Shown here: positions 1 through 64,000 of the stretch, in pieces
Layout: every line of letters begins with the position of its first letter
How positions within the stretch are numbered: position 1 is the stretch's first letter
From: Nakazawaea peltata
Taxonomy: Eukaryota; Ascomycota; Pichiomycetes; Alaninales; Pachysolenaceae
Assembly (NCBI GenBank): GCA_001599355.1
Contig: BCGQ01000002.1
Coordinates: 1,005,554-1,069,553, forward strand
Direction of reading: 5' to 3'
Length of the DNA stretch: 64,000 bases
Translations under genes and position numbers: made by a program
Notes under the pieces: model-generated
The model's input: the letters and a program-made list of their open reading frames with translations, nothing else
Told to the model about the DNA's origin: nothing
Database searches by the model: none

Positions 1-1028
1 CAAATAAACTGATGCTGCTGAAACTTTCAAGATCAAACTCTATGATGAATAACACATATTTCAACTCATCCCCAACTTCTTCTTCCAGACTTTCAGGATC
101 TCCTAACACTGGAGCATTATTTAGTATCACACCACCAAGTGATTCTCGTTTGGGTCCTTCCAGATTAACTCAGGAAGTACCAAGAGCTTCATTTTCCACC
201 GAGGATTTCACTCCGCCATCACTGACCCAAACTCAATCGCAGCCTCAAATTGCTATCCAACCCCCAAAATCTTCCTCCTTCTCCTACAATGCTACACCTA
301 CAGAATCCACACTGTTATTGCCTAAACCTCTGAAGAAGACGAAACATCACACCCCATTACAACATGCCAAGAACCTCATCACCGACCGGTCATTCTTATT
401 ACACTACCTCAACTTGAGTTTATTAGCTTCTATTGGTCAATTATACATCTTTTCTGTGGGATTCATCGTCCGTGCTTTATACGACAGTGAGACCGACCGT
501 GACCAATTGACCACGACAGCTGAGCTGTACCAAGCATTGCAAGTGTCAGTCCTCCTGTTCGGTTCCTTCGCTGGAAGATTGATCTCCGGGCCCCTGTCGG
601 ATATCCTCCATAAGAATTTCAAACTCCAACGGTTAGGCCTCATTTTGGTCTCCATTGCTCTCACGACTGCTGGCCAGGTCTCTACTTTAGCAATTGGAAG
701 TGTCAACTACATTGTGATCTCGTCGATCTTGATCGGATTCGGCTACGGCTCCATCTACGGAATCTACCCTCTGATTATTGCCGACCAATATGGATCCAAA
801 GGCTTCTCAACGTCATGGGGGTTGATTTGTACCGGGCCTTTGTTCGGATTGTACTTCTTGACCAAGGTTTTCGGACAGAACGTGGACCGGATGAGTGAAT
901 TCATAGGTGACAAGTATATGTGCATTGCCGGGAAGAGTTGTTACGATGAGATTTTCCGTATCAATATCGGACTTGGGGTTTTCATAGGTCTCCTTACGAT
1001 GGGACTCATTTATACAAACCGTAAATAA
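1..1028 (+). CDS. MFS transporter, nodulin-like / MCH1-YMR155W group (5' end outside window)
   Basis: This is the C-terminal part of a membrane transporter. The frame is open to the left edge, so the first ATG at position 12 is probably internal and the gene is partial. About the first 100 residues are a Ser/Thr/Pro-rich hydrophilic loop, as in the long central loop of fungal nodulin-like MFS proteins. About six hydrophobic segments follow, including one with GQLYIFSVGF and a glycine-rich one (ILIGFGYGSIYGIYP). A C-x6-C pair (CIAGKSC) lies in the last loop. By eye it resembles yeast YMR155W more than Mch1 itself. The substrate is unknown. It converges on OST3 with only 36 bp between stop codons. 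Confidence 0.75.
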   Translation, partial: NKLMLLKLSRSNSMMNNTYFNSSPTSSSRLSGSPNTGALFSITPPSDSRLGPSRLTQEVPRASFSTEDFTPPSLTQTQSQPQIAIQPPKSSSFSYNATPTESTLLLPKPLKKTKHHTPLQHAKNLITDRSFLLHYLNLSLLASIGQLYIFSVGFIVRALYDSETDRDQLTTTAELYQALQVSVLLFGSFAGRLISGPLSDILHKNFKLQRLGLILVSIALTTAGQVSTLAIGSVNYIVISSILIGFGYGSIYGIYPLIIADQYGSKGFSTSWGLICTGPLFGLYFLTKVFGQNVDRMSEFIGDKYMCIAGKSCYDEIFRINIGLGVFIGLLTMGLIYTNRK

Positions 1029-1064
1029 TAGAGAACATAATATTTATTGAATGGATGTGTAGAT

Positions 1065-2072
1065 CTAGAGAAGAGTAGTGAGATAAAATGGATATCCGTC
1101 GTTTTTGATATGGTAGAAAGCAATGATCAGACTGTATAATACAAATATAGCAGCATTGACGATGATCACGCTTACAAATTTGGTCTTTGGATCATCAAAT
1201 TTGCTAACTTTTGCAAGCAAAAACCACATGGCGACAAATAATCCAAAGTAAACCAGAGAAACCAAATGAGTCTCGGCACCTAATTGCTGTTGATGACCGG
1301 CAATGAAGTAATGCATTTGACCATTGGACTCTCTTGAATATGGAGTCTTTCTGATTTGGTTGAACATGATCCCAGCACAGAAGGAGAAAATAGTGAATAA
1401 AGCTAAGAAAGCATAGATAAATGTGGACTTGAATACCTTGTCAAATTTGGTGTAACATTTGTAAATAGTCACCACCAGCAAAGCCAAGAATGCGAATCTT
1501 TGGAAAATCTTCGAGTAATCGGTCGGTTCTCTCAATACAAACATATTAGGTGTAGCTGTCTTGATCTGAGAGAGGACAAATTGAGCTAAACTGGCATGAT
1601 GTTCTCCATTCATTAAAGTGTATTCCTCATATTTGGCGACATTCAGCTTGGATTTGGTCTTAGTTGGCGCATACAACAACACCTTAGGTACCGATTGTAA
1701 AGATAAGTCTTGGAAATACTGCTTATTGTCCCCAAAATCGGCAATTGCATACAAAATGTTAGGTGGTTTCTGGTCATCTTCGTCGGTAGAAGCCGGAATA
1801 AGAGTGCCACCGACATTCTCCGCATAAGAACTGGCAAATGTGGTGAAATGAGGGTAGAATTCAGTACATAAAGAGCATGCAATTCTCGATGAACTGGCCG
1901 TCAAGTACACAAGAACGTAATAATCTTCACGGTTCAGAAGGAACTGTTCATAATTTCTGTCGGTGATCTTCAAGATATTGTTGGAATTCACTTGTTTGGC
2001 CAATTCTACAGCGGTCAATGCATGCGATACCGCCCATAAAAATGCTGCTAAAAACACGCTACTGACTCTCAT
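1065..2072 (-). CDS. OST3: Oligosaccharyltransferase subunit Ost3 (thioredoxin-like)
   Basis: This is a subunit of the ER oligosaccharyltransferase complex that N-glycosylates proteins; Ost3/Ost6 hold substrate cysteines through a lumenal thioredoxin fold. The first ATG at 2072 gives 335 residues and a good signal peptide (MRVSSVFLAAFLWAVS). The frame is open further upstream only from a TTG. The lumenal domain carries a CxxC in ACSLC, aligned with GCSLC of yeast Ost3. Four membrane segments fill the C-terminal half, with a conserved MFNQIR motif after the second. Length matches Ost3 (about 350). MFNQIR and CSLC favour Ost3 over Ost6. It is divergent from RPC17. Confidence 0.9.
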   Translation of the reverse strand: MRVSSVFLAAFLWAVSHALTAVELAKQVNSNNILKITDRNYEQFLLNREDYYVLVYLTASSSRIACSLCTEFYPHFTTFASSYAENVGGTLIPASTDEDDQKPPNILYAIADFGDNKQYFQDLSLQSVPKVLLYAPTKTKSKLNVAKYEEYTLMNGEHHASLAQFVLSQIKTATPNMFVLREPTDYSKIFQRFAFLALLVVTIYKCYTKFDKVFKSTFIYAFLALFTIFSFCAGIMFNQIRKTPYSRESNGQMHYFIAGHQQQLGAETHLVSLVYFGLFVAMWFLLAKVSKFDDPKTKFVSVIIVNAAIFVLYSLIIAFYHIKNDGYPFYLTTLL

Positions 2073-2397
2073 ATCCTGTACACCTTTTGAATCTCCTTTA
2101 AAGCTCCTTTTCAACCCCTTTATGAAGAAAATACGTGGTTTTTCCAAGGATTTTTGGTGATGAGAGCAGTTTACGAATTAATATCAGGACACGACGGGGC
2201 TTTGATAGGATTGCCTAATTTGGCAATAGTGTGAAATACTTATTTAGGAAATGGGGAGTCGAAAAATTTTCTAGCCTGAGAAGAAGAGCGAGAAGAGCGT
2301 GAAGAGCAGGTGGTGGACGATTGGGATCAGCTAGGGAGCAGTTACGAGCGGTGAGTGACCAGTCAGGATCAACTAGTGAGCACTCCAGAACACAAAC
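2073..2397. promoter_or_regulatory. Divergent promoter OST3 / RPC17
   Basis: This 325-bp gap separates the two divergent ATGs. It contains GAAAAATTTT at 2261-2270, close to the RRPE element that drives ribosome-biogenesis genes in yeasts, about 130 bp upstream of RPC17. A purine-rich run (GAAGAGCG-type repeats) lies at about 2275-2310. Nothing else is recognised. Confidence 0.4.
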
Positions 2398-2889: not shown

Positions 2890-2944
2890 TATATTTAAGA
2901 AGAATAGATTAATGATATATATAGCTATCTGTAGTTTGTGTGGA

Positions 2945-4644
2945 TCAGGCACCGCCTCTTCTGGCACCACTAACGATATCATCGACTCTTAATAACAAAC
3001 AAGCACTTTCAATAGCTGTCTTGATACTTTGTTGTTTGATGACTTCAGGTTCCCAAATTCCGTAGTCTTCCATATCGACTACCTTTCCGTTCTCTCCATC
3101 AATACCGAAAGTATGGTGACCTTCGGCATGTTTAGCTCTCAAACTACTTAAAACTCTGATTGGGTTTCCACCACAATTTTGAACTAAAGTTCTTGGAATC
3201 ACTTCAAACAGATCAGCAACCAGTTGATATGGCCATTGCAGAACACCTTCGATAGATTTCAGTTTCTCAGCAAGCTTAACGGAAACACACATCTCGGTGG
3301 CACCACCTCCAGGGGATAAAGATGGTTCAAACATGACATTTCTGGTGACAGCCATAGCGTCTTGTAAGTTTCTTTCAATTTCGTTCAAAATATCCTTAGA
3401 TGGACCTCTCAACAATACAGTACAAGCTTGAGGGTTTTGACATTTGGTGATAAAAGAGTAATATTCATCTCCAATCAACTCAACATTGAACAAACCACAA
3501 CGTGTACCGACATCAGATTCTTTCAAATCTTCAATTCTATTAACAATAGTAGCACCTGTGGCTCTAGCAATTCTGTTGGTATCGGATTTCTTTACTCTTC
3601 TCAAACAAGTAACACCTCCCTTCAAAAGATAATGCTGGGCTAAGTCACTTACACCTTTCTCGGTGATAACCAAGTCAGGTTTTTGTTCCAAAAGCAAATC
3701 ACAAATCATTTTAACTTGTTCTTCTTCGATTTGCAAGATTCTATTCCAATCGTTTTCATTTGTGATTTCAATATTTGTTTGAGATTCTCCCTTCTTATAT
3801 TCCAATGGACAATCCAACAATATGACTCTTGGGTTCTCGATACGTCTCTTCATCTTTGGATGGGTGACATCTTTGTTTAATAATACACCATCCAAGACTT
3901 CGGAATCGGTGATTTCACCTCCGGAAATCTTCTCAACTCTGACATATCTCTTGATATCAATCTCTTTATAGTCACCTTGTTTAATCATGACGGTCTTGAC
4001 GGCCTTCAAGGACAACTTACACATCATTTCAGACCATTTGCTGATATATTTAGTACCAATGGAAGCTTGAATCAACTTGATCATAGCCTCATCATTATCA
4101 ATATCAATAGGTTTGGATACTTGATGAATAATCTCCAAAGCATCACTCAACAGCTGCTTCAACAGCTGGATTATAATGACAGGATGTACGTTCTTTTCAA
4201 TGTATGGGAAGGTTTGCAGTAAGATCTCACCTGCTAAGATGATAACAGTAGTAGTTCCATCTCCAACTTCTTCGTCTTGTGTTCTACTCAATTCAATCAT
4301 GGATTTAGCAGCTGGATGAGCAACGTCGATCTCTCTTAAAATAGCATGGCCATCGTTGGTCAACACAATACCACCCATTGGATCCAACAACATCTTCAAC
4401 ATCAGTTTAGGACCCAAACATGTTCTGATGATATCAGCAACAGCCTTAGCGGCGGTGATATTGGCAATCTGGGCCTGACGACCTGATTGTCTTTCAGTGG
4501 AAGTATCTAATTAATTTGTTAGTAAATGAATGGAGAGTAGGAGAGGTGAATTCGGGGGAACGACCGGCCAAAATACATCGATTCTTCGGCGCTCATACAA
4601 TTCCCCAATTTTTACTTACTTAAATACACAACTGGTGCCTGCAT
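2945..4644 (-). CDS. CCT3: Chaperonin TRiC/CCT subunit gamma (spliced)
   Basis: This is the gamma subunit of the cytosolic TRiC/CCT chaperonin that folds actin and tubulin. Two exons are inferred. Exon 1 (4620-4644) encodes MQAPVVYL plus the first base of an Asn codon. Exon 2 (4506 down to 2945) continues N-TSTERQSGRQAQ, matching the yeast N-terminus. The product is 528 aa, against 534 in yeast. ATPase motifs are plain: GDGTTTV, the LDPMGG segment and GGGATEM. CTG codons occupy alanine positions, for example GPK[A]ML (4403-4405) and WPYQ[A]VAD[A]F (3221-3223, 3209-3211). The protein ends DDIVSGARRGGA. Starting at a codon near 4417 would lose the conserved N-terminus. Confidence 0.97.
4507..4619 (-). 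other. CCT3 spliceosomal intron (113 nt)
   Basis: The donor is GTAAGT (4619-4614), the branch point is TACTAAC, and the acceptor is TTAATTAG ending at 4507. The intron is phase 1: the split codon A|AT gives the Asn found in the yeast protein. The branch A lies only about 12 nt from the 3' splice site. Confidence 0.93.
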
Positions 4645-5063: not shown

Positions 5064-5804
5064 ATGCCTTCTATCGTTTTTGATATTGTCGGAACCCTCA
5101 TCTCGTATGAGAGTGCCATTGTTGCCATTGATGAACAATTAGGTGACAAACTTAGAAAAGACGGAATCCAACCTCGCCTGTTGTTCTATTTCTGGTTATC
5201 AAGTTCCGAAAGAGATTACTCCTACTTATCTCAATCCAAACTTTACCAACCATTCATTAAGATTCTGGAGAGCACTTTCCACAGAGTCTTATTTTTCTCT
5301 GGTATCAAAGATCCAAAGGCTTACTGCAGTCCAGAGCAACTCCAAGCCATTATCGATGGGTTCTATGATTTGAGGGCTAGAGAAGAAACTGCCGAGGCTT
5401 TACGTTTGTTGAGAGAGTATGGGTTCAACACTTACTGTTTGACTGACGCTGGTGCCGAAAGAGTAGCCAACTACTTCATTAAGAGTGGTGTAGAGATGCC
5501 TCTGAAGGATATTATTTCTTGTGATTCTATTGGCCAAGGTAAACCAGAAGCAATTGCTTATCAAACCATTTCTAAGAGATTAGCTGAGGAAGACGATGAT
5601 GACAAATGGTTCTTTGCTGCTCACCTGTGGGATACTGCTGCTGCTAGACAAGGTAAATTCAGAACTGCTTGGTCCGATGTTCATGAATTTGAACCTTGTA
5701 CTGATGTCTTTGGTGAACCAGACGTTATTGGTGGGGGGTTGATCGATACTGTTAATAAGGTTATTGCTATGCACAAGCAATTGAAGGCTGCTAAGTCTGC
5801 TTAA
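5064..5804 (+). CDS. HAD-superfamily hydrolase, 2-haloacid-dehalogenase-like
   Basis: This is a cytosolic HAD-fold hydrolase of 246 aa. Motif I is FDIVGTL with the nucleophile Asp near residue 6. Motif II Thr is in TYCLTDAG, the motif III Lys is in GKPEA, and the final acidic motif is AAH[A]WDTAAA. In that last motif the bracketed residue is CTG at 5625-5627, and Ala is what fungal relatives carry. It resembles the fungal family annotated as type II haloacid dehalogenases, but the true substrate is unknown and could be a phosphate ester. The start is ATG 5064; the frame extends upstream only from a TTG. It converges on SSD1 (96 bp). Confidence 0.8.
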   Translation: MPSIVFDIVGTLISYESAIVAIDEQLGDKLRKDGIQPRLLFYFWLSSSERDYSYLSQSKLYQPFIKILESTFHRVLFFSGIKDPKAYCSPEQLQAIIDGFYDLRAREETAEALRLLREYGFNTYCLTDAGAERVANYFIKSGVEMPLKDIISCDSIGQGKPEAIAYQTISKRLAEEDDDDKWFFAAHLWDTAAARQGKFRTAWSDVHEFEPCTDVFGEPDVIGGGLIDTVNKVIAMHKQLKAAKSA

Positions 5805-5900: not shown

Positions 5901-8900
5901 TCAATTTTGAGCAAACGGATTCAATGCTCTGACTGTCAAACATGGCAACAGCATTCCAATTTCAGCTCTTAATAATATTGGAACTTTTTGTAATACCCTG
6001 ATCTCTTGGATATGATCTTCATTATTAACTCTTGTGATACAATTCTGTAAGTAAGATTTTAATAAATCGTCAGCACTTGAAGAATTGTTGGCGGAATCGT
6101 TAGAATTATTACCGATCTTTGGAGGACTGATATTGAATTGAGATAATTTGTCAACAAGCTCGTTTGAAATCATCTCGGTTTCAAGATTTTCTTGTTGTTT
6201 CACAACCTCAACTACAGGTGATCTATGCTTGTTCTTGATAGACAGTCTGTAAGACAAAGCGTCATTTTCATCATCTGGAATATAAGTAGCTGAATCGACA
6301 CCTTTTTGCCAATATAATTCCAAAATTTTGTTATTTTTATCGAATTCAGCCTTGGTCAAAGGTAATTGATCTCCGTGTACTCTCTTTTCGATACCCATTT
6401 CTGGGATCAAAACATCAAATGATGATTCATACACTTGTACTACAGTTCCCATAGTGAGTATTTGCCCAGTAGTCTTACTCATATCGTTGATCGATTGCGA
6501 TAATAATAAATGAATCAGTTGTTCTTGAGCCAGCTTTGCGCAATCTTTCTTGAAATTACAATAATCCAGAGTCATTTTCAATGACTCAATATCATCATTA
6601 TATTCATGGATCTTATCACTGAGAACAGCCTTCAACTGTCTGTGAACCAAAATATCGGCATATCTTCTCAATGGAGATGTGAAATGAGTGTACAAAGGCA
6701 AGTTGAACAAATAATGAGGGAATTGTTCAGGGTCACATTTACCAGAAATAACATACTTACCACGACTCATACATTTCATCAATAATGTTTCAGCTGATAA
6801 TCTTGTAGAAGCATCGTCGATCTTTAAAAGAGATCTTTGTAAACTGGCCGAAGTTGTAGTGTCCAAATGAACACCCAATTGAGATACCTTCTTATGGTAA
6901 GTCTCCAATTTCAGTAAGGTTGGAATCAGTTGCCTTCTTAATAATGCACGATCTCCTAATCTACTGAAAATCTTCTGAGCGATAGTGAAGTTCACCTTAT
7001 GGAAGATCTCGTTCAATAACAGATCTGAAGGACTTTCATCCAAGATATTCAATGACAATTTCACCCTCTCATCATCCAACAGATCGAAAAGAGGCAATGA
7101 TCTTGTGGTATCGAACTCATCTCCTCCTAATCTTTGTTTCCTGAACTCTTTTGAGATTAATTGTAATGATCTTATATAGTCAGTAGTAGCATTAGAGATT
7201 CCTGGAGCAGCCGATTCATTACGTACAACCGCATCAATCGCTTCATAAGTGACTTTCTGTTTAGGAACGATGATGGACTCACCGATCCAAATATCATCGA
7301 TTTCAAATGATGTAGTATCAATACTGAAAACAACACTGATCGCCAAATTATGAGAGTTTTCTTTGAAGGAGAACATATCGTTAACTCTATCAGGGAAAAG
7401 ATGGGTAGTTCTTTGAGGTAAGAAGACACTATGAGATCTCTTTTTCAGTTTCTTGTCAAGGGTAGATCCTTGTCTGACACCAGCTGTGACATCAGCAATA
7501 TGGACACCAAGCTCAATCTTTGAAGCAGACGAACTCTTAAGATGGAATGCATGGTCACTCAACTCACCACTTTGACTAGCACAGATGATATATTCAGACC
7601 CAAATACACGTCTATGTTGGGATCCCAGGATAAGCTCTTCCAACTTAGGTAAATCGCTGTATAACTTTTCCAACTCTTTAGAGCTTGAATTGTCCAATGG
7701 ATATTCATCACACAAGAAATTGTTATCTCTTAATATGGCATCAATCTCTGTGGAAGCATCTTCCATTGGACCCAATTGAGAGATCAAAGTACCAAATGGA
7801 TGCAAGGAGGTGATTGGCCATCTCTTAATACTTGCTACAAACAATTGGTCGCTGTATTTTTCATGGTTTTCAACGAAGTCTTTAGGAGCTTGTTCGGTTG
7901 GAATGGCAATTAAAGGAACTTTCTTATCGGTTGGTTTGAACCAAACAATCTTAGGTCTTCTTTGATGAGTATGAGAATTATGATCATTATCTCCATTATC
8001 CTTTTCTTTATCTTTGGATGCCTGTGAAGGTCTCAATAATCCTAAAGTACCGGAGAATAATTGGCCAGGAATTCTGTCAACCACTGCAACAACGTGACCA
8101 GCATATAAAGGTTTATATTCATCACTGATTTCTTCTTCCTCTACAAGCAACAAAGACTGGCCTTCAACTTCAACATCATCATTTTTCTTTTGAGTTGGAC
8201 GTTGTTTCAATGATCCCTTTCTTGTTAATCCACCTCCATTGTTATTCTTCTGGTCAGAGGAGTTATATGTGGTGGAAGCGTCATTGTGCAAGTCATCATT
8301 TGGTTTGGAAGGTTGAGAGTTGTCTTTACGTCTCTTCTTCTCTTCCTTTTCTCTCTTAGAAGACCATACCTCATCCACTACCAACAACTCTACAGCTACT
8401 AAATCACCTTCCAAAGCTCTATTACGGTCTTTGGAACCACAAATGAACACATCAGCATCGAGCAATCCATCGGTAGAGACATAAGCATCGGATCTGTTCT
8501 TTTTGTTCACTCTTAAAGTACCGGTAACTAAACGACCCTCGGCAATTAAAGCTGGCAAGGAAGACTGAGGCAAGTAAGGAGCAAACAAAGATTTTCTTTG
8601 AGATCCGCCTTGACCCAGAATACTACCTTGATGTTGATGACCTCCGTAATTAGCTAAAGAAGAGATGGAACCACCGAAAGATGATCTTCCCAGCCTATGA
8701 CCAGGGACAAAAGTAGAGTTTCCTGTGGATCCACCGGAAGAACTTGGTGGCTCCAACAATTGTGATTGGTAAGTAGAGTTAATGCTGTTGTTACTATTAC
8801 TTGGAGAAGGTCTTCTTCCCCAATTGTCGTTTCTCGATGAAGATCTGTAATGGCCAGACTGTCTACGCTCATGACCCTGTTGGAAATGAGGAGCAGGAGG

Positions 8901-10672
8901 CAGCATCATATCATTATTGTTACTGTTCCTTGGAGGGAACTGGTATGCATTACGTTGAGGAGACCTGTCGTTTGACGGGGTGGTACCACCAAAAGTCATC
9001 ATTGACCTTGATCTGCCATGAGAAGGCTGTCTCTTGAGTCCAGAATCTTGGTTATTAGCTGAGAGAGGAGGCGTTGGAGGGAACTTGAATGAAGGAGGAG
9101 GCATTGAAGATGTCTCTGAATCATTAGAAGGTGTGGTGTTCCCCATACGCAAGGGAGAGAATGAGGAGCGTTGAGACTGAGCAATTGCAGCAGCCTTTTT
9201 CAGCTCATTCAACCCTAAAGAATGTCTCCTTGTGTGCCCAAGAGCTTGATTATGCTGGAGAGGTGAGCTTGCATTTGTGAGCTCCGAATTATTAGTGGTA
9301 TTATTAGTATTGAATGCAGATGGTGAAGCCGATGATGCTTTGAAAGGAGGCAGAAGCGGCATTGAGAATGTGCCGATATTCGACTGTGTTCTCCGATGGA
9401 AGTTATTTTCAGATCCCAACTCGGACAAGTTACGAGGTGCTGGCAGTTGTTGTTGTTGTTGTAATGGAGATGGTGGTGGAAGATTGACCGAAGGCATCTG
9501 GAAATGACCAAAAGCACCTGAACTATTGCGATTATGCTGTGAAGATTGAGAAGACAATTGGATCTGTTGTGCCTGGTAGAATTGTTGTTGTTGCTGTTGC
9601 TGTAAGATTTGCTGCTGTTGAGCCTGGACCAGTTCCAATTGACGTTGTAAATTGAATTGTTCAACTATAAAACCGTTAGTATATGCCTCTATATGCAAGT
9701 TGTTTACCATGTCCAATTGGGGAAATAGAGTGCGATGGCTAAAAATAGCACGAAAAAATAGTGTGCCAAGAGGTCAAGTGCAGTGCGCGGAACATGAGCG
9801 AAAAATTGGAAGGGAGGATAAAGGGGGGGCTCCGCCTGCGGGAAAGCAGGTTTTTCGTTTGTTCGGCAGCAAGATGCAGATGGCTCCGGCTTAGAGGGAA
9901 GGGGGGTAAAGAGAGGTGATGATGTGTTGTGTGTGTAAACTGTTGTGGTGTGGTGTACTGTGCTATGCTGTGGGTTGAAATGGTTTGCTTTGAGACCTCC
10001 CCTGTACTGGTCTGTACTGCGCTACCGCCTGCTCCCTCACTTGTATTGACCCAACGCGCGTCAGGATTCGGATCGACCCGAAATGGGTCATATTGATCGT
10101 AATCGCCATCAGATTAGAGGGGCAATAAAAGTAGGGGGCACCAATGAGGGCTCTATGTGGGCGCTACTCTAGGCGCTATGTGGGCGCTATGTGGGCGTTA
10201 TCTCAGGATGTATTAAATCTTCATTGTATCATTGAATGATGTCTCACAGTATGTTCTCTCTAATATTTCTCTTCAGTATTCCACCTGTATTCTTTCTTCT
10301 AATGGTATCTTTAGCATGTGATAGTATGATGGTATAATCACATCGCTTAATCACTCAATCGCTTGATCACATGATCACCCCATCATCTCTCTATAATCCA
10401 ATCTCCCTATCTCTCTATCTCACTATTCCACCTATCCACCAATATCTTCCTATAATATACTTACTCATTAAACTGGTCAACTCACTAGGAGAACGTCTAT
10501 GAGCAATATGAATTGTCTTGGGCTTAGCTCCCCCAATGGTAGTCTTAGTCACTCCTGGACCCTCCTGAGCCTGAGATATAGAACCCCCAGCTTCATATCC
10601 AGAAGGATTCAAGAACTGATCAGGCTCTCCATTCGGGTTGCGCCCACCATAATTGTTCTTATTATAACTCAT
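5901..10672 (-). CDS. SSD1: RNase II-like mRNA-binding translational repressor Ssd1 (spliced)
   Basis: Ssd1 is a cytoplasmic RNA-binding protein that represses translation of wall-protein mRNAs and is controlled by the kinase Cbk1. Exon 1 (10465-10672) encodes 69 residues including HIAHRRSPSELTSLM. Exon 2 (9664 down to 5901) begins EQFNLQRQLE, as in yeast. The product is about 1323 aa. The N-terminal third is Gln/Ser/Asn-rich, with several HxRxxS Cbk1-type sites (HRRSPS, HRRTQS, HTRRHS, HERRQS, HGRSRS). Cold-shock domains follow (KSLFAPYLPQ onwards), then an RNB domain with LGVHIADV. The catalytic DxDDA-type acidic cluster is absent, as in yeast Ssd1, so it is a pseudonuclease. The end NPFAQN matches the family. 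Confidence 0.96.
9665..10464 (-). other. SSD1 intron (800 nt)
   Basis: The donor is GTAAGT (10464-10459), the branch point TACTAAC sits within the last 20 nt, and the acceptor is TTTATAG ending at 9665. Splicing joins SLM-(A|TT, Ile)-EQF. The intron is long for a yeast. It contains three copies of CTATGTGGGCG (10153-10163, 10176-10186, 10187-10197) and a G-rich patch. An ATG at 9710 is in frame with exon 2 through the acceptor. Confidence 0.9.
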
Positions 10673-11689: not shown

Positions 11690-12886
11690 TTACTCACTAT
11701 CATCATCCTCTTCTTCAGCCTCTTGTAACCAAGTGATAAATGGCTTAGCGGCTCTTCTGATCTTCTTAACCAACTTCTTATCATCCAAATACTTAGTAGA
11801 TACTGTAGTACCCCATTTAGTGATAACTTCTTCACTAATCAAATCTTGATCATAAAGTACCATCAAAATCTTTGGAACCTTAGCAATCAAATCTGGGTAA
11901 CTAACACCAATTAATCTCTCAAGACCACCAAGTAACAGTTTCTCGTGCTTAGAAGAAGTGATCAACTTTCTCAACAAACCTTGATGAGCCTTAATTTGAG
12001 ACTCAATCTCTTCATCAAAGATACATTGCAGCAAGACAGTCAATACTTTAGCCTTGCTTACAATGGATAACTCGGTGAGCTTTTTATAAATTTCAACGTC
12101 ATTTGGCAACTCGGACTTATCTTCCTTGAATAACCATTCACCAAATTGTTCGATTTCATCGGCCTCACTACCAATGTTCAATCCTTCCAATTCTTTAGCT
12201 CTTTGCAGAATCAGTTCTTCAGACATATCTACGGCCCAGTCATCATCGTTGATAGGTTCCAGATCTGGTAACAGTTGCAGTTCAGCATTGAATTTTCTAG
12301 CTAACTCATCATCATCAGATAAGTTATCCTCAACAGTGGTATCAGCGGCACCAGCACCTCCGTTGTTTTGGTTGGCCAAATCACTAATGGTGACACCTCC
12401 ACCAACAACGTTGGCAGAAGCGGTGGCACTTCTCTTGGAAGATTTACCCTTGGCACTCAGAGGTGGGTTCTTGATGATATATGATGCTAACTTGTGTCTT
12501 GGGTCAATGGCAGTTCTCTTACCACAAGCTTTACAGTCTCTAGTAAGTGACTCATCCTTTCCGATCAAAATCTCGGTTTCAGGGTTCTTACAAGATCCAC
12601 ACAAGACAAACTTATTGATGAAACCATCCAAAATATCTTGCAACTTCAGAGAGTCATGTTGACCATTGACAAGGAATCTGTCTTCCTTGGTCTGAGCACC
12701 CAACTCAGATCCAAAATACTTCAACACATACGATGGAGGTCTGTTCAAAGCACGACTCACCTCAGCCAAGTTGACTACGGCGGTCTTGATACCGTTACCT
12801 CTACCTTCAATCTTGGATTGGATTGGAGGCATCTTGTAACGGTAGAACGGATCGGTGTTCTCACGGCAAATATTGATAGACGACAT
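11690..12886 (-). CDS. TIF5: Translation initiation factor eIF5
   Basis: This is the GTPase-activating protein for eIF2 in the 43S/48S initiation complex. The protein is 398 aa, against 405 in yeast. The start MSSINICRENTDPFYRYKM places the GAP arginine at about residue 16. The zinc ribbon has C96, C99, C118 and C121 (LCGSCKN, CKACGK). A charged linker contains WAVDMSEE, and the C-terminal W2/MIF4G-type HEAT domain ends RRAAKPFITWL with an acidic tail. Three CTGs fall at yeast alanines: HDS[A]KLQD (12647-12649), DMSEE[A] and VL[A]QC. The promoter carries GAAAAAATTTTC at 12961-12972, an RRPE-like site. Confidence 0.97.
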   Translation of the reverse strand: MSSINICRENTDPFYRYKMPPIQSKIEGRGNGIKTAVVNLAEVSRALNRPPSYVLKYFGSELGAQTKEDRFLVNGQHDSLKLQDILDGFINKFVLCGSCKNPETEILIGKDESLTRDCKACGKRTAIDPRHKLASYIIKNPPLSAKGKSSKRSATASANVVGGGVTISDLANQNNGGAGAADTTVEDNLSDDDELARKFNAELQLLPDLEPINDDDWAVDMSEELILQRAKELEGLNIGSEADEIEQFGEWLFKEDKSELPNDVEIYKKLTELSIVSKAKVLTVLLQCIFDEEIESQIKAHQGLLRKLITSSKHEKLLLGGLERLIGVSYPDLIAKVPKILMVLYDQDLISEEVITKWGTTVSTKYLDDKKLVKKIRRAAKPFITWLQEAEEEDDDSE

Positions 12887-42755: not shown

Positions 42756-43241
42756 ATGAAAGTAGTATTACAGAAGGTCAAGAACGCATCGGTTACTGTT
42801 GATAACCTGATAATCTCCCAGATTAATAAAGGTCTTCTCTTGTTGGTAGGAATCTCAACTGAAGATACCGAAGAAGATGTGGTCAAACTCTCATCCAAGA
42901 TCTTGAAGCTTCGTTGTTTCGAGGATTTACAAGAGGAACTGGGCACCAATACCAAATGGGTAGGTAAGCCTTGGAGTAAGAGTGTATGTGATATTCCGGG
43001 AGGTCAGATCTTGAGTGTCTCCCAATTCACCTTATATGGAACTGTAAAGAAAGGATCCAAGCCAGACTTCCACAAGCTGCAAAAAGGAGAGTTACTGAAA
43101 GTGTTGTACGATAAGTTTTTGGGTGAATTACGTAAGGGATTGGGAGATGATAATGTTAAAGACGGTCAATTCGGCCTGATGATGGATGTCAACTTGTGTA
43201 ATGATGGTCCAGTTACCTTGGTTTGGGATACTAAAGAATAG
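42756..43241 (+). CDS. DTD1: D-aminoacyl-tRNA deacylase
   Basis: This enzyme removes D-amino acids mischarged on tRNA, and also glycine from tRNA-Ala, acting as a chiral proofreader in the cytosol. It has 161 aa. The family motif SQFTLYG and the Gly-cisPro loop NDGPVTLVW are intact. The N-terminus MKVVLQKVKNASVTVD matches exactly. CTG at 43176-43178 lies in DGQFG[A]MMDV, where other DTDs have Ala. The gene lies 37 bp from the convergent USP gene. Confidence 0.95.
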   Translation: MKVVLQKVKNASVTVDNLIISQINKGLLLLVGISTEDTEEDVVKLSSKILKLRCFEDLQEELGTNTKWVGKPWSKSVCDIPGGQILSVSQFTLYGTVKKGSKPDFHKLQKGELLKVLYDKFLGELRKGLGDDNVKDGQFGLMMDVNLCNDGPVTLVWDTKE

Positions 43242-47258: not shown

Positions 47259-48770
47259 ATGACAGAAATGAAACAAATAAAGTCGGTCGCAATAATTGGC
47301 GGAGGTCCAAGCGGTATAGCCACATTATATGAGCTTCTAAATACGCTTGAAGATGGTTCTTCCACCGTTGGTCAAGACAATCCCTCTACAGGGTCATCAC
47401 CTGCCTTTGACAGGGTCGTGATGTTCGAAAGAAATGGCGCCGTAGGCGGTACCTGGTGTAAAACCGAATGTGGAAAGGAAATGAGAGGCCCAAATTTACC
47501 AAATGATCTTACAACGAACACATATGATAGACCCGAGAATTGTTTCCAACCTGTCCCGGTTCCTATCGATCTTACTGCCTCTCATACATATGAAGATCCC
47601 TTAATTAAGGCTAATGAGGAAAATTATGCCGACGATCTTTACCAGTGGAAAAGTACCGGTGTTTATGATGGGTTATTTACAAATATTCCATACAATTTGA
47701 TGACTTTTTCCTTCACTCCCGATCTTAAGTTGCCTGATCGTCCTATCCTTAAGACTTTACAACCATGGGAGGAAGTATCGGAGTATTTGGAGAGTATCGT
47801 CACTGATAATAATCTTGAGGATCATATAAGACTCAATTCTAATGTAGAACAGGTTACTAAACATAAGGAAAATGATAAATGGACCGTTACTGTTAGGGAA
47901 GGTTCAAATAAATGGTACACTGAACAATTTGATGGTGTAATAATCCTGAATGGACGGACATTACCTTACTTTCCAATAATAGAAGGGATCGAAGAGTACA
48001 AGAACGCAAATCCCGAGACTTTGATCCAGCATTGTAAAAATATCCATAAACCACATGAATTAAATCGTAGAAACAAGATCTTGTTTATTGGTTGCAGTGT
48101 TAGTACACTGGATCTTGTTCAATATTGCTTCCCTCGACCATCCAATGAACCTAGTGTGTTTATCTCCAGAAGATCTGCTTTGAATCAATATGACTGGGTC
48201 AATTATGCTACATATTCTTCAGGAATAATAGGTAAACCTGAAATTTCCAGATTTAACAAAGATGGGTCTGTAGAATTCACCGACGGAAGTATCGAAAAAG
48301 GATTCGACCATATCATCTACTGTACAGGATACCATCAATATTTCCCATTTTTGGATAAACTTGAGAAAGACACCTCTACAAACTACCATCAATTTTATGA
48401 TAATGTATTTAGTACTCTGGACCCATCTTTAGCTCTCGTTGGTACATTATATACGGCATTTTTCTTCAATAGAGCTGAAGCAAATGCTTCTGCCATCGCT
48501 GGAGTATGGTCAGGGTACAAACAACCACCTCAATCATTGGATATCACAAAGTCTATTCCCTCAGTATTTAAAGTATGGGACATCAGAGACAAGTACATGC
48601 AATATCTCTTAGATAAGTATGGTACGAAGAATAGAAAGAACCCTCTTGATTCCCCTTCAAGAATCGAAGCAATTAGAGATTATGCCGAAGGTTTCAGAAC
48701 TGTGGGACAGATCTTCTCAGATTTAAAACATGGTATCTACAAACATGATGATGTATTTAAAACAACTTAA
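47259..48770 (+). CDS. Flavin-containing monooxygenase
   Basis: This NADPH- and O2-dependent oxygenase of soft nucleophiles has 503 aa from ATG 47259. The frame is open upstream only through low-complexity pyrimidine DNA. The FAD site is VAIIGGGPSGIATLYELL. The second motif GGTWCKT follows. The NADP motif is LFIGCSVST[A]DLVQY, where CTG 48118-48120 gives Ala. A VIII-type motif GVII[A]NG (CTG 47946-47948) matches the ATG/ANG found in FMOs, and FDHIIYCTGYHQYFPFL is the terminal CTGY motif. In yeast Fmo1 generates oxidised glutathione for the ER. The substrate here is unknown. Its stop overlaps that of CSC1. Confidence 0.9.
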   Translation: MTEMKQIKSVAIIGGGPSGIATLYELLNTLEDGSSTVGQDNPSTGSSPAFDRVVMFERNGAVGGTWCKTECGKEMRGPNLPNDLTTNTYDRPENCFQPVPVPIDLTASHTYEDPLIKANEENYADDLYQWKSTGVYDGLFTNIPYNLMTFSFTPDLKLPDRPILKTLQPWEEVSEYLESIVTDNNLEDHIRLNSNVEQVTKHKENDKWTVTVREGSNKWYTEQFDGVIILNGRTLPYFPIIEGIEEYKNANPETLIQHCKNIHKPHELNRRNKILFIGCSVSTLDLVQYCFPRPSNEPSVFISRRSALNQYDWVNYATYSSGIIGKPEISRFNKDGSVEFTDGSIEKGFDHIIYCTGYHQYFPFLDKLEKDTSTNYHQFYDNVFSTLDPSLALVGTLYTAFFFNRAEANASAIAGVWSGYKQPPQSLDITKSIPSVFKVWDIRDKYMQYLLDKYGTKNRKNPLDSPSRIEAIRDYAEGFRTVGQIFSDLKHGIYKHDDVFKTT

Positions 48771-54224: not shown

Positions 54225-56561
54225 ATGGAACTACCCATCTTAGATTATAAGCAAAGAGTGGGAAATAGTTCGGGAATTCCTCGTCCACTGCCCGATTTCG
54301 GCGACGATCCCGATGGTACTAAAACTTATCGAAAGAGGTACCTGAATAAATCGAATATTGATTGGACTTATGAATATGAATTGGATGAATTGAATTTGGC
54401 GCGGGCGTTACAATTGAACAGCCTTCCATTTTGGAGGAAAATTATCTATAGAAACAGCGTTTCAATGCTGCTTCTCTTGGTAGGTCTCATCATTGGACCC
54501 GTGGCTATTGTGATCGATGTACTTTCAAGGAATTTGAACGATATCAAATATGGGTTATGTATTCCTTCGGATGGGAATTTCCGTTTCGTTTCGAGTGTGC
54601 AATGTGGTGAAGACGACTGGAAATTATGGTCTACCATAATATTTGGCTCTGTAGTCCAGGACAAGGAATCTCTTTTCCATTACTTCAACAATTACCTAAT
54701 CTATATAATATTCTCGGTCTTATTTGCATATTTGGCTACTCTATTGGTCAAAAGACAACCTTATACTAAATACAGTGGTATTTCTGAGTTGAAGATCATT
54801 TTATCTGGATTCATCTTGAGACATTTTTTGAATTTCCAGATCTTGATTCATAAACTGATTGGTTTGATTTTGGTGATTGGCTCTGGTATTTGGGTCGGCA
54901 AGGAAGGTCCAATGTGTCATATTTCTGCATGTATAGCAGAATTGATCATTCAGCTCTTCCCTAGACTCAGTGCCAATGAAGCTTGGAAAAGAGAAGTCAT
55001 CACTCTGTCTACTCTGGCTGGTATAAGTGTAGCTTTCAATGCTCCAGTAGGTGGTGTATTGTTCTGTCTCGAGCAAGTGAGAACTTATTTCCCTGTAGAT
55101 CGATTAATGTGGAATTCATTTGTATGTGCTACTGTTCTGGTTATGATGTTACAAATGGTTCATCCATTTGCCAATTTGATCTATGGCCAGATCTTCACGG
55201 TTACCAATGATTCTCAAAATTGGTTAAATTACGAAATTATACCCTTCATGTTACTCGGAGTTATTGGAGGTTATTTCGGTATTATATTCAACAAATTAAA
55301 TGCCAAGTTTGCCGAAGTCAGAAATGTCGTCATCAATAAATCGATGAAGACAAAGATTTTGGAAGTCGTAGTATTGGCTTTTGTCACCCTGTTGATATCT
55401 TATCCATTTGTGATCACTAGAGTACCTTTAACAGAGTTAATTTCTGTACTTTTTTCAGATTGCAAACAATTGGGTAAAGGAAAAGAAGGTAACAATGCTA
55501 GCGATCTGATTCTTGAGGCTTTGTGTTATGAGACTGATAAGTTCCCATGGGGTGTAATCTCATTGCTTTTCTTCCTGTCGATCCAAGGATTCGCTCTTGC
55601 CCTGTATAGTTATGGTACATTTATTCCGGGAGGTGTATTGATGCCTTCTTTATCGATCGGTGCTATTATTGGTAGATTCATGGGTACGTTAATAGAGTAC
55701 TTACAATTCCAATTCCCGACATTATCGATTTTCCAAAGTTGTTCGTTGAATTCATATAACTGTATTACTCCAGGTTCTTATGCTGTTGTTGGAGCTGCTT
55801 CTTTCTTATCGGGTGTTACTAAAATGAGTGTTTCTGTCGTTGTGATATTGTTCGAATTAACTGGAGCCTTGAATTATGTTATCCCAATCATGATCGGTGT
55901 TATGCTCTCTAGATTTATTTCGGATTTAGGAAGCGATAAATCTTGCTATGAAATATGGTTACAGTTACAAAATTTACCTTATTTGAGACCTGGACTTGAT
56001 GAAGAATTGAAAAAACCGTTATTGTCAATGATCACCGCAAGTTCATGTATGAGACCTAATCTGGAAGTAGTATGCATTTACGATGAAGAGATTACCGATA
56101 TCCTGTCATTAAAGCATTTTGTCGACAGATACACTTTCGAAGGGTTCCCTGTATTAAATAATAGAAATGACAAGCACTTGATCGGATGGTGTTCTAGACA
56201 TGAATTGCTGTTATTGCTTTTGGATTTCGAAGATCTGGAATCCCTGCCATCGGTAATTATGTCATTCCAGAGTCATGGGGTCTTAAATAAGATCCTCTCC
56301 AACAGTGATTATTTCATCGTATCTTCTAACCTTTCCATTCTTACATTATATGCGATGTTCGATAAGTTGTCATTGAAGTTACTGTTCTTTATGAAACCTG
56401 ATGAGCGTTTGATTTTCGAGAGCCTTATGACTAAAAAGGATTTAATTATGTTGACAGAATTAGATGAGCATAAGTTGATGGAATTGTCAAATCAGCGTCC
56501 ACATCAACCGGGAGAATCTCAAGAAATGGAACAATTTTTGATCGATGATGAAGAGATGTAA
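54225..56561 (+). CDS. CLC-family chloride transporter/channel lacking the proton glutamate
   Basis: This is a 778-aa CLC protein with the two-fold membrane domain (residues about 75-590) and two C-terminal CBS domains. The anion-path motifs are YSGISELK, VGKEGPMCH with gating Glu227, GGVLFCLEQ and FIPGGVLMPS. The residue 57 positions after the gating Glu is Gln284 (CAA, 55074-55076). In exchangers such as ClC-5 and Gef1 that position is the proton glutamate. CTGs at 55005-55007 and 55014-55016 give IT[A]ST[A]AGISVAF, close to the alanine-rich helix of relatives. It is related to yeast Gef1 but may be another CLC paralogue. It is probably in an endomembrane or the plasma membrane. Confidence 0.9.
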   Translation: MELPILDYKQRVGNSSGIPRPLPDFGDDPDGTKTYRKRYLNKSNIDWTYEYELDELNLARALQLNSLPFWRKIIYRNSVSMLLLLVGLIIGPVAIVIDVLSRNLNDIKYGLCIPSDGNFRFVSSVQCGEDDWKLWSTIIFGSVVQDKESLFHYFNNYLIYIIFSVLFAYLATLLVKRQPYTKYSGISELKIILSGFILRHFLNFQILIHKLIGLILVIGSGIWVGKEGPMCHISACIAELIIQLFPRLSANEAWKREVITLSTLAGISVAFNAPVGGVLFCLEQVRTYFPVDRLMWNSFVCATVLVMMLQMVHPFANLIYGQIFTVTNDSQNWLNYEIIPFMLLGVIGGYFGIIFNKLNAKFAEVRNVVINKSMKTKILEVVVLAFVTLLISYPFVITRVPLTELISVLFSDCKQLGKGKEGNNASDLILEALCYETDKFPWGVISLLFFLSIQGFALALYSYGTFIPGGVLMPSLSIGAIIGRFMGTLIEYLQFQFPTLSIFQSCSLNSYNCITPGSYAVVGAASFLSGVTKMSVSVVVILFELTGALNYVIPIMIGVMLSRFISDLGSDKSCYEIWLQLQNLPYLRPGLDEELKKPLLSMITASSCMRPNLEVVCIYDEEITDILSLKHFVDRYTFEGFPVLNNRNDKHLIGWCSRHELLLLLLDFEDLESLPSVIMSFQSHGVLNKILSNSDYFIVSSNLSILTLYAMFDKLSLKLLFFMKPDERLIFESLMTKKDLIMLTELDEHKLMELSNQRPHQPGESQEMEQFLIDDEEM

Positions 56562-56841: not shown

Positions 56842-57789
56842 ATGAGTGAAGAAGTTCCCAATTGGATCCATGCTATGAGTGGAGCGTCTGGAGGAATTTT
56901 ATCCATCCTGTTAACGTATCCATTGATCACATTATCTACGCGTGCTCAGGCCAATTCGAATGAGAAGGAGCAGAAGGGTGAAAACAATCAGGAGAAGGCA
57001 AAGAATGGCGAGAACGACGAGATCGACAAGAAAAATGCCATAAATAAGTACCTGCAATTACCATCCTCTATCAAACACCTCTACTCAGGCCTAGAAAGTG
57101 CCCTCTTAGGTATCGGGCTCACCAATTTCGTCTACTATTACTTCTATGAGATGACTAAAAAAATGATGCTCTTAAAGACGAAGAAGAAGAGTTTAAATAC
57201 GATCCAATCGATGATAATCGGTTGTATTGCAGGTAGTATAACTGTAATTCTGACCAATCCCTTGTGGGTTGTCAATACTAGACTGACGGTCATGCACAAA
57301 CAACATAAAGATTTGAACACATTACAAATTTTACTTGCTATTTTGAAAGAACCTCGTGGATTAGCTCAATTATTCAATGGTGTATTACCTCTGTTGGTGT
57401 TGGTTTTGAATCCTATCATTCAATATTCGTTCTTTGAGCAGTGTAAGAACTTCATAGTTAAGAAGAAGGGTAAATTATCGGCCTGGGATCTGTTTTATCT
57501 CGGAGCTTTGGGTAAATTGATAGCTACTGGGTCCACATATCCATATATTACGTTGAAAAGTAGGATGCATTTACAGAAAGAAGGTGCTAAGAAATCTATG
57601 TACCAGTTAACCAAGAATATCTTTCATACTGAAGGTTTACAAGGTTTCTATAATGGGATTGGTATGAAATTAACCCAATCGATATTGACTCTGCTGTTTT
57701 TATTCTACTTTAAAGAGAGATTAGTCGGGGTAAACTATGGGATGTACAAATTATTGAGGAGATTGAAACTGAAAAATGCATCATATTAA
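56842..57789 (+). CDS. PMP47: Peroxisomal carrier Pmp47 (adenine nucleotide / ATP transporter)
   Basis: This is a member of the SLC25 carrier family, 315 aa, with three repeats and six membrane helices. It resembles Candida boidinii Pmp47 and human SLC25A17, which bring ATP and cofactors into peroxisomes for fatty-acid activation. Signature loops: LLTYPLITLSTRAQ in repeat 1 with a Lys/Glu-rich insert, LTNPLWVVNTRLTV in repeat 2, and GSTYPYITLKSRM in repeat 3. VLNPIIQYSFFEQ matches the SLC25A17 branch. CTG in SILT[A]LFLFYF fits Ala. It overlaps convergent ORT1 by nine bases. Confidence 0.85.
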   Translation: MSEEVPNWIHAMSGASGGILSILLTYPLITLSTRAQANSNEKEQKGENNQEKAKNGENDEIDKKNAINKYLQLPSSIKHLYSGLESALLGIGLTNFVYYYFYEMTKKMMLLKTKKKSLNTIQSMIIGCIAGSITVILTNPLWVVNTRLTVMHKQHKDLNTLQILLAILKEPRGLAQLFNGVLPLLVLVLNPIIQYSFFEQCKNFIVKKKGKLSAWDLFYLGALGKLIATGSTYPYITLKSRMHLQKEGAKKSMYQLTKNIFHTEGLQGFYNGIGMKLTQSILTLLFLFYFKERLVGVNYGMYKLLRRLKLKNASY

Positions 57790-58683
57790 ATATTGTTTCA
57801 TGGTCTCATATAAATAAAACACAAAAGCATTGGATGGGATCAGTCTCATTACAGTCACTCCACAGCCAGTGTAGAATCGGGATATCCCACCAGATTTATA
57901 TATTTGTGCGGCAATTTGAGCATATGTGGAGTCTGTGTTTGACGTCTGCATGACAGATTTCACCGTATCAACGGGGAAGAATGATAAGTTGTATGCGATT
58001 CCCAGCAGAGCTCCAGAACAAAGCAATTGGATAGATGACACTTGGGTATTTTTATTCTTCTTTTTAAATCCCAGTAATGCAAATTCGTATGTTCCGAACC
58101 AGAACATTGTTCCTCCTGTTTCTCTTATCAATGTAGATGACTGTCCTTTCCAGAAATTGGCAACACCAGGTGTCTTCCCACCTCTTCTATAGATCTGTTT
58201 CAGTAATTCGACTATCGAGGAATGAGTGGTGGAATGTGAACCCAAATTATTGACCTGCATTTGACATTTGATCAATTCCACCGGGGTCAACACAAAACTA
58301 GTCACGGCTCCACTAATACCTCCCGCCACCACTTTCCATCTGAGTTCTAACTCCTCCGATAAAGGTTGGTTCAATATATGTTTAGAGATGAGGATCTTGG
58401 AGAGATCGTAGGTCCAAAATAATGATGCAAACTCCAACAGCAGACCTGCCATTGGAGAACTCAATCCTTTATAGAATCCCGACATAAACCCTTCATTGAT
58501 CCATGTCTGTCTTATGCAATCACTGGTGTTCTTGAATAATGGCACTGGAAGAGACTGAGAATATTGTAGTCTGACTTTGATAGTGTCGAATGGGAACTCT
58601 ATAACTTTACCTAGCGCACCTGAAACCGAGCCTAGAAAGATCTCTCTCGCACTCTCTTCCAAATAAGAGACTTCTTTCTCCAT
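57781..58683 (-). CDS. ORT1: Mitochondrial ornithine transporter
   Basis: This inner-membrane SLC25 carrier exports ornithine for arginine synthesis (yeast Ort1/Arg11). It has 300 aa. Its carrier signatures are GKVIEFPFDTIKVRLQ, LTPVELIKCQMQV and FFPVDTVKSVMQT, the first and third nearly identical to yeast Ort1. Two adjacent CTGs (58438-58443) give MAG[AA]LEFA, where yeast has VGACLENA. The start is ATG 58683. The upstream gap is shared with divergent RPP2. Confidence 0.93.
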   Translation of the reverse strand: MEKEVSYLEESAREIFLGSVSGALGKVIEFPFDTIKVRLQYSQSLPVPLFKNTSDCIRQTWINEGFMSGFYKGLSSPMAGLLLEFASLFWTYDLSKILISKHILNQPLSEELELRWKVVAGGISGAVTSFVLTPVELIKCQMQVNNLGSHSTTHSSIVELLKQIYRRGGKTPGVANFWKGQSSTLIRETGGTMFWFGTYEFALLGFKKKNKNTQVSSIQLLCSGALLGIAYNLSFFPVDTVKSVMQTSNTDSTYAQIAAQIYKSGGISRFYTGCGVTVMRLIPSNAFVFYLYETMKQYLI

Positions 58684-62330: not shown

Positions 62331-62368
62331 TTGAAATTACCAGCTAAAGAATATTTAAATAGATATTT

Positions 62369-63987
62369 TTATAAGAGATAATCAAGGTTACCGGCTATCG
62401 CGGTGATGACAGCACGCTCACGGAATTTATAACCTGATAATGACAGCAGCAGTTTCAGAGCATCTTCAGAAGATTCAAATTCCACATAAACACGCCCTCC
62501 TACTGACCCTTGAGCAATTTCAACACCACGAACATTACCGAAATTCAGACATTGTTGACGGAATTCAGATTTAAGCTCTTCAATCACCTCTTCTGGTGCC
62601 TTGAAATCCTTTGAATCAAGACAATTCAAAAGTAAAAGTACATTAGAAGATTGGAACGAAGTTCCAATCTTCCCCTCAACTGCATCGACAAGATTTTTAT
62701 ATGTGATACTGAAATCTTGTTTATAAATGGACTCCGTTAAATTGAAACATACCACTTTATTGTCATCCAACGGTTTATCGTGGAGCTTAGTGAGAATTGA
62801 TAAATCTGTTGAGTCTAAAATGGCTATTCCAGTACTCTCATTCGTGATAGAATTCACAAGTAATTTAAAAGAAGTTATCAGTACATCTCCAGCTTCAGTA
62901 TTGATCCATTTTTCAACCTCTTGTCCAGATTTTGAAGATGGGATATTGGTGACTGCTATAGTACTTGGTTGGTTGGAGACAATGTATGTTGCCGGTCTTT
63001 CAAGATCAAGAACAAGCTCTGATAATGCTGGAATAGATTTCCCTTTGAGCAGATATGTAATAGTAGTGACTTCAGGAGTAATAAATTTAAGAACTAAAGT
63101 ATTTTCACCCACTTTAGTATGACTTGTTATAGCAGAAGTAGACTGTCCTGTAAGAACATCTTCAAGAGTGATAATAAAGTTATTGAGATACTGAACAATG
63201 GCATCTTCAGTCAGTAATGAGAAATCTATCTTACGTAAGATCAATGTACGTGCCAGAACTGAACTGGAAGGTTTCAATTTCAGCTCCATTTCTGGATTAG
63301 CAACAGCAGCAGCTTCGGCTTCTAACTCTTCGAGATTTTTACCTTCTAAAAGAGCTAATAATTTACCATAATCGAGATCTACTCTACGAGCACCCACTTT
63401 TTGGAAAAGTCCTATCAGTTTCAGATCTTCGGCCTTTAACTTTTCATAGTTTTTTGGGGGTAAGTCCCATTTTGATTTGGACTTGATTTGTTCAGATACT
63501 TCTTTCAAAGTAGGGACGGTAGATAAATCGACTCCTGCGGCGAAATCGACAAAAGTCGATCTCTCACGGTTACGAGATTGTGATTTATAGTGCTGATCTC
63601 TGAATCTGTCTCTGTCCCTATAATCTCTACTATCTCTATCTCTACCATCTCTACCATCTCTTCTATAGTCTCTAGGGCCTCTAGAGTTATAGTCTCTATA
63701 CCCCCTGGAGTCCCTACTATCTCTGAAATCTCGATCTCTGAAATCTCTGTCTCTGTAGTCTCGATCTCTAGAATCCCTTACATCTCTAGACTCCCTTCCA
63801 TCTCTGTAGTCTCTCCCCTCCCTTCCATCTCTATATGGAATCCTCCGATCATTTCTCCCTCCTCTTGGGCCTTGAGGTGTATCTAAATTGTTAGTAAATC
63901 CACTCCGAAAAAGCTCAAATACCAGACTAGAGCCACCCAATCTGCTTCCAATCCAATATCAGCACATTTATACTCACTTCTATCCAT
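62369..63987 (-). CDS. MUD2: U2AF65-like splicing factor Mud2 (spliced)
   Basis: This commitment-complex factor works with BBP/Msl5 at the branch point. Exon 1 (63978-63987) encodes MDR plus the first base of Asn. Exon 2 (63882 down to 62369) continues N-TPQGPRGGRN. The product is about 507 aa. Residues about 15-105 are an Arg/Asp repeat (RD, RDxRD, RDSRD) in place of a classic RS domain. Divergent RRMs follow (ARTLILRKIDFS and STIAVTNIPSS). The C-terminal UHM is recognisable from GRVYVEFESSEDALKLLLSL and SGYKFRERAVITA. Without exon 1 the frame has no ATG, which supports the spliced model. Confidence 0.9.
63883..63977 (-). other. MUD2 intron (95 nt)
   Basis: The donor is GTGAGT (63977-63972), the branch point is TACTAAC and the acceptor is AATTTAG. 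It is phase 1, with split codon A|AT. The branch A is only eight or so nucleotides from the 3' splice site. Confidence 0.88.
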
Positions 63988-64000
63988 TGCTGTTCTCTTC

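Follow-up and report, generated by a model that had tools for sequence, protein, structure and literature searches.

In the budding yeasts Pachysolen, Nakazawaea and Peterozyma, the nuclear codon CUG is read as alanine, a code established from comparison of sequences and, for selected species, from mass spectrometry (PMC5951914). The NCBI taxonomy places Nakazawaea within the family Pachysolenaceae of the order Alaninales. The CUG-Ala nuclear code corresponds to NCBI translation table 26. Here we examine CUG decoding in a 64,000-nucleotide stretch of Nakazawaea peltata DNA (GenBank assembly GCA_001599355.1, contig BCGQ01000002.1, positions 1,005,554 to 1,069,553), referred to below as the window. 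We put at roughly 97% the probability that the window derives from the nuclear genome of a CUG-Ala budding yeast of the Alaninales, near Pachysolen, in which CUG is translated as alanine by a transfer RNA (tRNA) with the anticodon CAG, tRNA(CAG), encoded outside the window.

A preliminary description of this DNA had proposed alanine decoding from CTG codons found where orthologues carry alanine. Its list was hand-picked, and every CTG codon of three window proteins was therefore tested:

39702..41345, minus strand: SRP1 (importin alpha); 22 CTG codons, including 40887-40889, 40761-40763 and 40383-40385
28759..32694, plus strand: 5-oxoprolinase (OXP1-like); 15 CTG codons, alanine being commonest in 11 of the 15 CTG columns
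19646..21373, minus strand: amino-acid permease (DIP5-like); 23 CTG codons, alanine being commonest in 15 of the 23 CTG columns

The CTG codons were masked as X and each protein was aligned with its best 120 homologues from a search of 5.8 billion database proteins. A column was considered usable at an occupancy of at least 70%, which retained 59 of the 60 CTG codons; the one left out, in SRP1, had too low an occupancy. Over these 59 columns, the log-likelihood was +91.8 for alanine, -35.2 for serine, -77.9 for threonine, -90.7 for valine, -94.2 for glutamine and -96.0 for leucine, with the remaining residues lower still. Alanine is thus by far the best of all 20 residues. As a control, the same procedure was applied to 55 other codons and recovered the standard amino acid for 54 of them; only ACG, which occurred once, deviated. 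Alanine is the commonest residue in 44 of the 59 CTG columns (18 of 21 in SRP1), leucine in three, serine in two and other residues in ten. When only the 29 columns conserved to at least 70% are considered, 27 are alanine, one is valine and one glutamine, and the claim that no CTG falls on an invariant leucine or serine holds in the three proteins. The reverse count agrees: CTG occupies 26 of the 98 columns with at least 80% alanine and none of the 119 columns with at least 80% leucine. Of the 21 usable CTG sites in SRP1, 18 are alanine in the Pachysolen tannophilus protein as stored in the database. Aligning all CTG columns to homologues was the check that the preliminary description had called for, and in these three proteins its outcome upholds the assignment to alanine.

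Two database proteins among the homologues deserve mention. P0242, 74% identical to the window permease, has leucine at three of 23 columns with at least 80% alanine, the pattern to be expected for a gene of a CUG-Ala yeast when it is read with the standard code. P0122, 85% identical to OXP1, has no leucine at any of 44 such columns.

Across the window, CTG makes up 326 of 15,422 codons (21.1 per thousand) in 33 tallied open reading frames (ORFs); four more of the 37 listed ORFs overlap or nest in others and were omitted. Each of the 33 contains at least two CTG codons, and a standard-code translation would therefore be wrong for every tallied ORF, as had been anticipated for the databases. 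The CTG columns of the remaining window proteins were tested through Pfam scores. For this purpose 28 of the 33 proteins were translated both ways and scored against the first-listed family of each; the five others are three ORFs that showed no Pfam family, together with SRP1 and the last ORF. The alanine translation scored higher in 23 proteins and the leucine translation in four, with one tie and a net gain of 153.7 bits toward alanine. Compared with serine in nine proteins, alanine scored higher in eight, with a net gain of 64.3 bits. The permease reached 431.2 bits against AA_permease with alanine, 416.7 with serine and 408.3 with leucine. The other named genes of the window are as follows, with their Pfam scores where alanine was favoured:

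2945..4405, minus strand: 3' exon of CCT3 (chaperonin gamma subunit); CTG at 4403-4405, 3221-3223, 3209-3211 and other positions; 528.4 bits as alanine, 510.9 as leucine
5064..5804, plus strand: HAD hydrolase; CTG at 5625-5627
5901..9710, minus strand: SSD1-like RNB protein; 18 CTG codons, including 6516-6518; RNB family, 230.6 bits as alanine, 227.0 as leucine
11690..12886, minus strand: TIF5 (eIF5); nine CTG codons, including 12647-12649, 12212-12214 and 12029-12031; 122.2 bits as alanine, 120.5 as leucine
42756..43241, plus strand: DTD1 (D-aminoacyl-tRNA deacylase); CTG at 43176-43178; 178.4 bits as alanine, 166.4 as leucine
46935..48770, plus strand: FMO-like monooxygenase; CTG at 47946-47948 and 48108-48110; 61.5 bits as alanine, 59.2 as leucine
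54225..56561, plus strand: CLC chloride channel; CTG at 55014-55016; 245.1 bits as alanine, 230.8 as leucine
57781..58683, minus strand: mitochondrial carrier (ORT1-like); two adjacent CTG codons, the first at 58441-58443; 194.9 bits as alanine, 189.5 as leucine

The six coordinates that had been singled out in SRP1 and CCT3 all prove to be minus-strand CTG codons. The remaining motifs of that list (three in TIF5, two in the FMO-like protein and one each in DTD1, ORT1, CLC, HAD and SSD1) are likewise present, each with CTG where it had been marked. The FMO-like ORF opens with a long low-complexity stretch rich in F, P and S (46935-47200), so that the real start codon, or else the boundary of a 5' exon, probably lies further downstream.

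Solved structures, read by eye, provide a further comparison. The seven CTG codons of CCT3 within 2945-4402 face six alanines and one glutamine in the best chain, 5gw4_g, which we take to be that of Saccharomyces cerevisiae; in the more distant chain 9unw_H, the same sites hold four alanines, two serines and one glutamate. Outside the window, a D-2-hydroxyglutarate dehydrogenase-like gene on contig C10 has nine CTG codons, one of them unaligned to chain 6lpn_A; the eight aligned sites correspond to four alanines, two glutamates, one cysteine and one aspartate. A gene on contig C4 resembling the mitochondrial seryl-tRNA synthetase has seven CTG codons, four unaligned to 7tzb_A, and the three aligned ones face two alanines and one methionine. 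Neither leucine nor serine occurs at any of the 11 aligned sites of these two genes in their best solved chains.

No tRNA gene was found in the 64 kb of the window, and the search covered the entire assembly, 11.6 Mb in 11 contigs. A class I pattern for the CAG anticodon loop matched 16 places with T32 and five with C32, the backward controls matching 11 and seven, and ARAGORN recognised a CAG tRNA at exactly one of the 21 places:

G000:C4:81426-81498, outside the window: tRNA(CAG), identified by pattern, ARAGORN and Rfam

The preliminary description had predicted a tRNA with anticodon CAG and a G3:U70 pair, and this gene is the single copy found; a BLAST search of the genome matched only the gene itself. 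It is a class I tRNA with the acceptor stem GGGCUUA/UUAGUCC and A73, which places G3:U70 as the third pair, and its anticodon loop, UUCAGGU, carries G37. A-box and B-box motifs and a downstream T run accompany the gene. Against the whole Rfam tRNA model it scores 50.9 bits with permissive filters, compared with 60.4 for tRNA-Ala(AGC) and 59.8 for tRNA-Val(UAC); folding was uninformative (z of 0.15, against -0.27 and -0.46 for the same two tRNAs). ARAGORN, relying on the anticodon alone, names it tRNA-Leu, an annotation error that is to be expected. Alanyl-tRNA synthetase (AlaRS) recognises its tRNAs by G3:U70, the classic alanine mark, and A73. AlaRS needs no particular anticodon bases (PMC5951914). 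The enzyme would recognise tRNA(CAG) by G3:U70 and A73 despite its CAG anticodon, placing alanine at CUG. We infer that tRNA(CAG) is expressed and charged with alanine, and it very probably carries out the CUG-to-alanine decoding.

A serine reading, as in the Candida (Ser1) or the Ascoidea/Saccharomycopsis (Ser2) clades, must be considered here, since serine is the second-best residue in the CTG columns and is favoured in one of the nine Pfam comparisons. Serine is however second-best in GCT columns as well (-53.8), because serine and alanine exchange easily. With serine 127 log units below alanine in the CTG columns and absent from the 29 well-conserved ones, and with a tRNA(CAG) that lacks the long variable arm of tRNA-Ser, this reading is very improbable.

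Adjoining tRNA(CAG) is a gene on the minus strand (L093:2-631) with ten CTG codons in 210, presumably of the exo-1,3-beta-glucanase family.

A competing leucine or serine tRNA for CUG was also sought over the whole assembly. The class II NAG D-arm pattern matched ten places, none of them CAG: tRNA-Leu genes with TAA (two), TAG (one) and AAG (one), five serine genes caught through neighbouring letters, and one chance site. The leucine TAG, AAG and TAA genes served as positive controls and were recovered. Two class II CAG-loop patterns matched 23 and eight places, with no excess over the backward controls (24 and 30). All 31 places were fetched and scanned without revealing a CAG tRNA; one is a tRNA with a GAA loop, read as tRNA-Phe with an intron and called Leu or Val by ARAGORN. 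Hence no tRNA-Leu(CAG) or tRNA-Ser(CAG) was detected, with the limit that these patterns could miss a class II gene whose D-arm is unusual and which also has a long intron.

CUG is used extensively in this genome. In the window, one ORF with an N run excluded, CTG represents 30% of alanine codons (324 of 1,088). A further 85 loci, not chosen for CTG runs, yielded 72 long open frames, not all of them proven genes, in which the share is 28.9%. In both samples, only GCT is used more often for alanine than CUG. TEF1, present as two near-identical copies (L117 on contig C1 and L119 on contig C10), is devoid of CTG among its 33 alanine codons (21 GCT and 12 GCC, a few codons being masked). Such an absence, in one gene only, is as expected if a single tRNA gene makes CUG slow. 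For the GCN codons, six tRNA-Ala genes were found (four AGC and two UGC), all on contig C9; tRNA-Ala(CGC) was not seen, no anticodon search having been aimed at CGC. Repeats of (CTG)5 matched 54 times on the forward and 45 times on the reverse strand of the whole genome, overlapping matches being counted separately, compared with two and none for the backward control; such runs could encode poly-Ala or poly-Gln, depending on the coding strand.

Several observations weigh against alanine decoding of CUG by tRNA(CAG) in a relative of Pachysolen. The three CTG columns where leucine is commonest and the two where serine is commonest are such cases, all weakly conserved (65% and 60% at best). Leucine also scores higher in Pfam for three MFS transporters and for the HAD hydrolase (31.6 bits against 31.2 as alanine). 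The default Rfam scan did not report tRNA(CAG), presumably owing to its speed filters, since permissive ones give the 50.9 bits mentioned above; the Rfam tRNA list of the genome lacks the CAG gene too, being incomplete (63 of 608 candidates scored). For missing a gene with this score, the default scan was rejected as a full tRNA list. A tRNA-Leu(UAG) gene exists in the genome (L049), leaving room, at the level of DNA, for some leucine at CUG by wobble; mischarging might be another source at low level. Finally, several Ser1-clade yeasts are nearly as close to the window in OXP1 (72-74%) as P. tannophilus (75%), and placement near Pachysolen therefore rests mainly on SRP1 and on the code.

From the first of these points one could argue that the standard code applies, CUG being leucine and the alanine columns reflecting a biased choice of examples. 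The original list was indeed hand-picked, and three of the four proteins favouring leucine are membrane transporters. When all usable CTG codons of three proteins are taken together, however, leucine falls far below alanine, and CTG is absent from every conserved leucine column, leaving this explanation virtually no chance. More attention could be given to an ambiguous code, in which CUG would be mostly alanine with a measurable share of leucine. A73, A35 and G37, the three leucine determinants named for yeast in a published study (PMC8629427), are all carried by tRNA(CAG); tRNA-Leu(UAG) may wobble to CUG, and the avoidance of CTG in TEF1 would be in keeping with a codon read less accurately or more slowly. 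On the other hand, CTG is frequent at near-invariant alanine sites and the single tRNA gene is a sufficient reason for its avoidance in TEF1. P. tannophilus is reported to insert more than 99% alanine at CUG, an earlier estimate of 10% leucine being called mistaken in the same paper (PMC8645108). Ambiguous decoding is unlikely, and alanine remains the reading that we retain for CUG.

The origin of tRNA(CAG) raises a separate question. In the published account, the CUG-Ala tRNA derives from tRNA-Ala by mutation (PMC5951914). In the present genome, the body of tRNA(CAG) resembles a valine tRNA no less than an alanine tRNA. The comparison covered 16 tRNAs of this genome, not its full set, with the core defined as the D arm, the anticodon arm minus the anticodon, the variable loop and the T arm. 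Since the BLAST search returned only tRNA(CAG) itself, the nearest paralogue was judged from these aligned tRNAs. Of 55 core positions, tRNA(CAG) shares 41 with Val(UAC), 38 with Ala(AGC), 38 with Glu and 32 with Ala(UGC), and its D-stem and G31:C39 pair are those of Val(UAC). In the acceptor stem, both alanine tRNAs match at 11 of 15 positions and Val(UAC) at nine, a region that is held by AlaRS identity and therefore says little on descent. Overall, Val(UAC) matches at 50 and Ala(AGC) at 49 of 70 positions. Gapped pairwise alignment was uninformative (55 matches for Leu(AAG), 52 for Val(UAC), 51 for Glu and 51 for Ala).

Trees were built with tRNA(CAG) and 14 of the 16 tRNAs, two having been dropped, and placed it beside Val(UAC) with a support of 75 for all sites, 84 for the core and 69 when four S. 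cerevisiae tRNAs were added. With one strand per stem, it fell beside Val(UAC) and Glu with a weak support of 45. Forcing a grouping with the alanine tRNAs cost 13.0 log units for all sites (approximately unbiased test, p-AU 0.15), 18.8 for 59 core sites (p-AU 0.008; Shimodaira-Hasegawa test, p-SH 0.08), 8.9 for one strand (p-AU 0.19) and 15.2 with the S. cerevisiae tRNAs (p-AU 0.10). Because paired stem sites are not independent, the single low value, p-AU 0.008, is too small. A grouping with Glu was not rejected in the three data sets tested (p-AU 0.29, 0.49 and 0.65). The trees do not settle the origin of tRNA(CAG), and the published origin from an alanine tRNA is unsettled in this genome.

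It is possible, though on balance doubtful, that tRNA(CAG) was made from a valine tRNA rather than by mutation of an alanine-tRNA anticodon. A single anticodon change would convert tRNA-Val(CAC) to CAG and remove C36, a base that valyl-tRNA synthetase relies on; a newly acquired G3:U70 would have handed the former valine tRNA to AlaRS. No tRNA-Val(CAC) was found in the genome by anticodon pattern or D-arm pattern. The Val(AAC) sequence is present at five places and Val(UAC) as one gene (G000:C7:714835-714908, L066). The reading of GUG would then fall to the tRNA from this single Val(UAC) gene, GTG representing 147 of 905 valine codons (16%). If a valine origin were true, the accepted account, in which only the anticodon changes and the synthetase ignores it, would need a second route by an identity switch in the acceptor stem.

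Concerning its relatives, the best named match of the window in SRP1 is P. tannophilus (84%), the next being Babjeviella (79%); in OXP1 the best named match is again P. tannophilus, followed by Priceomyces (74%), both among the best 120 homologues. For the permease, P. tannophilus was not among the best 120. The highest identities among the listed homologues are 84% for SRP1, 85% for OXP1 and 74% for the permease. The window thus differs in protein sequence from P. tannophilus NRRL Y-2460 (84% in SRP1 and 75% in OXP1).

With the CUG-Ala code of the Alaninales, this genome shares CUG as alanine, a CAG tRNA with alanine marks and the lack of a detected tRNA-Leu(CAG). The reassignment to alanine, which the preliminary description ascribed to Pachysolen and its relatives, matches what is published for this order (PMC5951914). 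The code itself is already known for the Alaninales, and the present genome is a further well-supported case of it, not a new code. The code can be recovered from raw sequence, and translation table 26 is the one to apply to the genes of this genome. The same survey describes CUG as relatively infrequent in the code-changed clades, with a tendency to avoid conserved sites (PMC5951914); in contrast to that general statement, it makes up about 30% of alanine codons here and stands at many near-invariant sites. Such heavy use at conserved alanine sites shows that the reassignment is thoroughly established, a single tRNA gene having been identified for roughly 30% of the alanine codons. The CUG-Ser codes, Ser1 in Candida and Ser2 in Ascoidea and Saccharomycopsis, have in common with this genome the reassignment of the same codon through a new CAG tRNA. 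The CAG tRNAs of the Ser1 species analysed, except Babjeviella, also carry G37 (PMC5951914), as does tRNA(CAG) here. The CAG tRNAs of both serine codes are nonetheless serine tRNAs, whereas that of N. peltata belongs to class I and bears G3:U70, the alanine pair, in a genome whose CTG columns are alanine.

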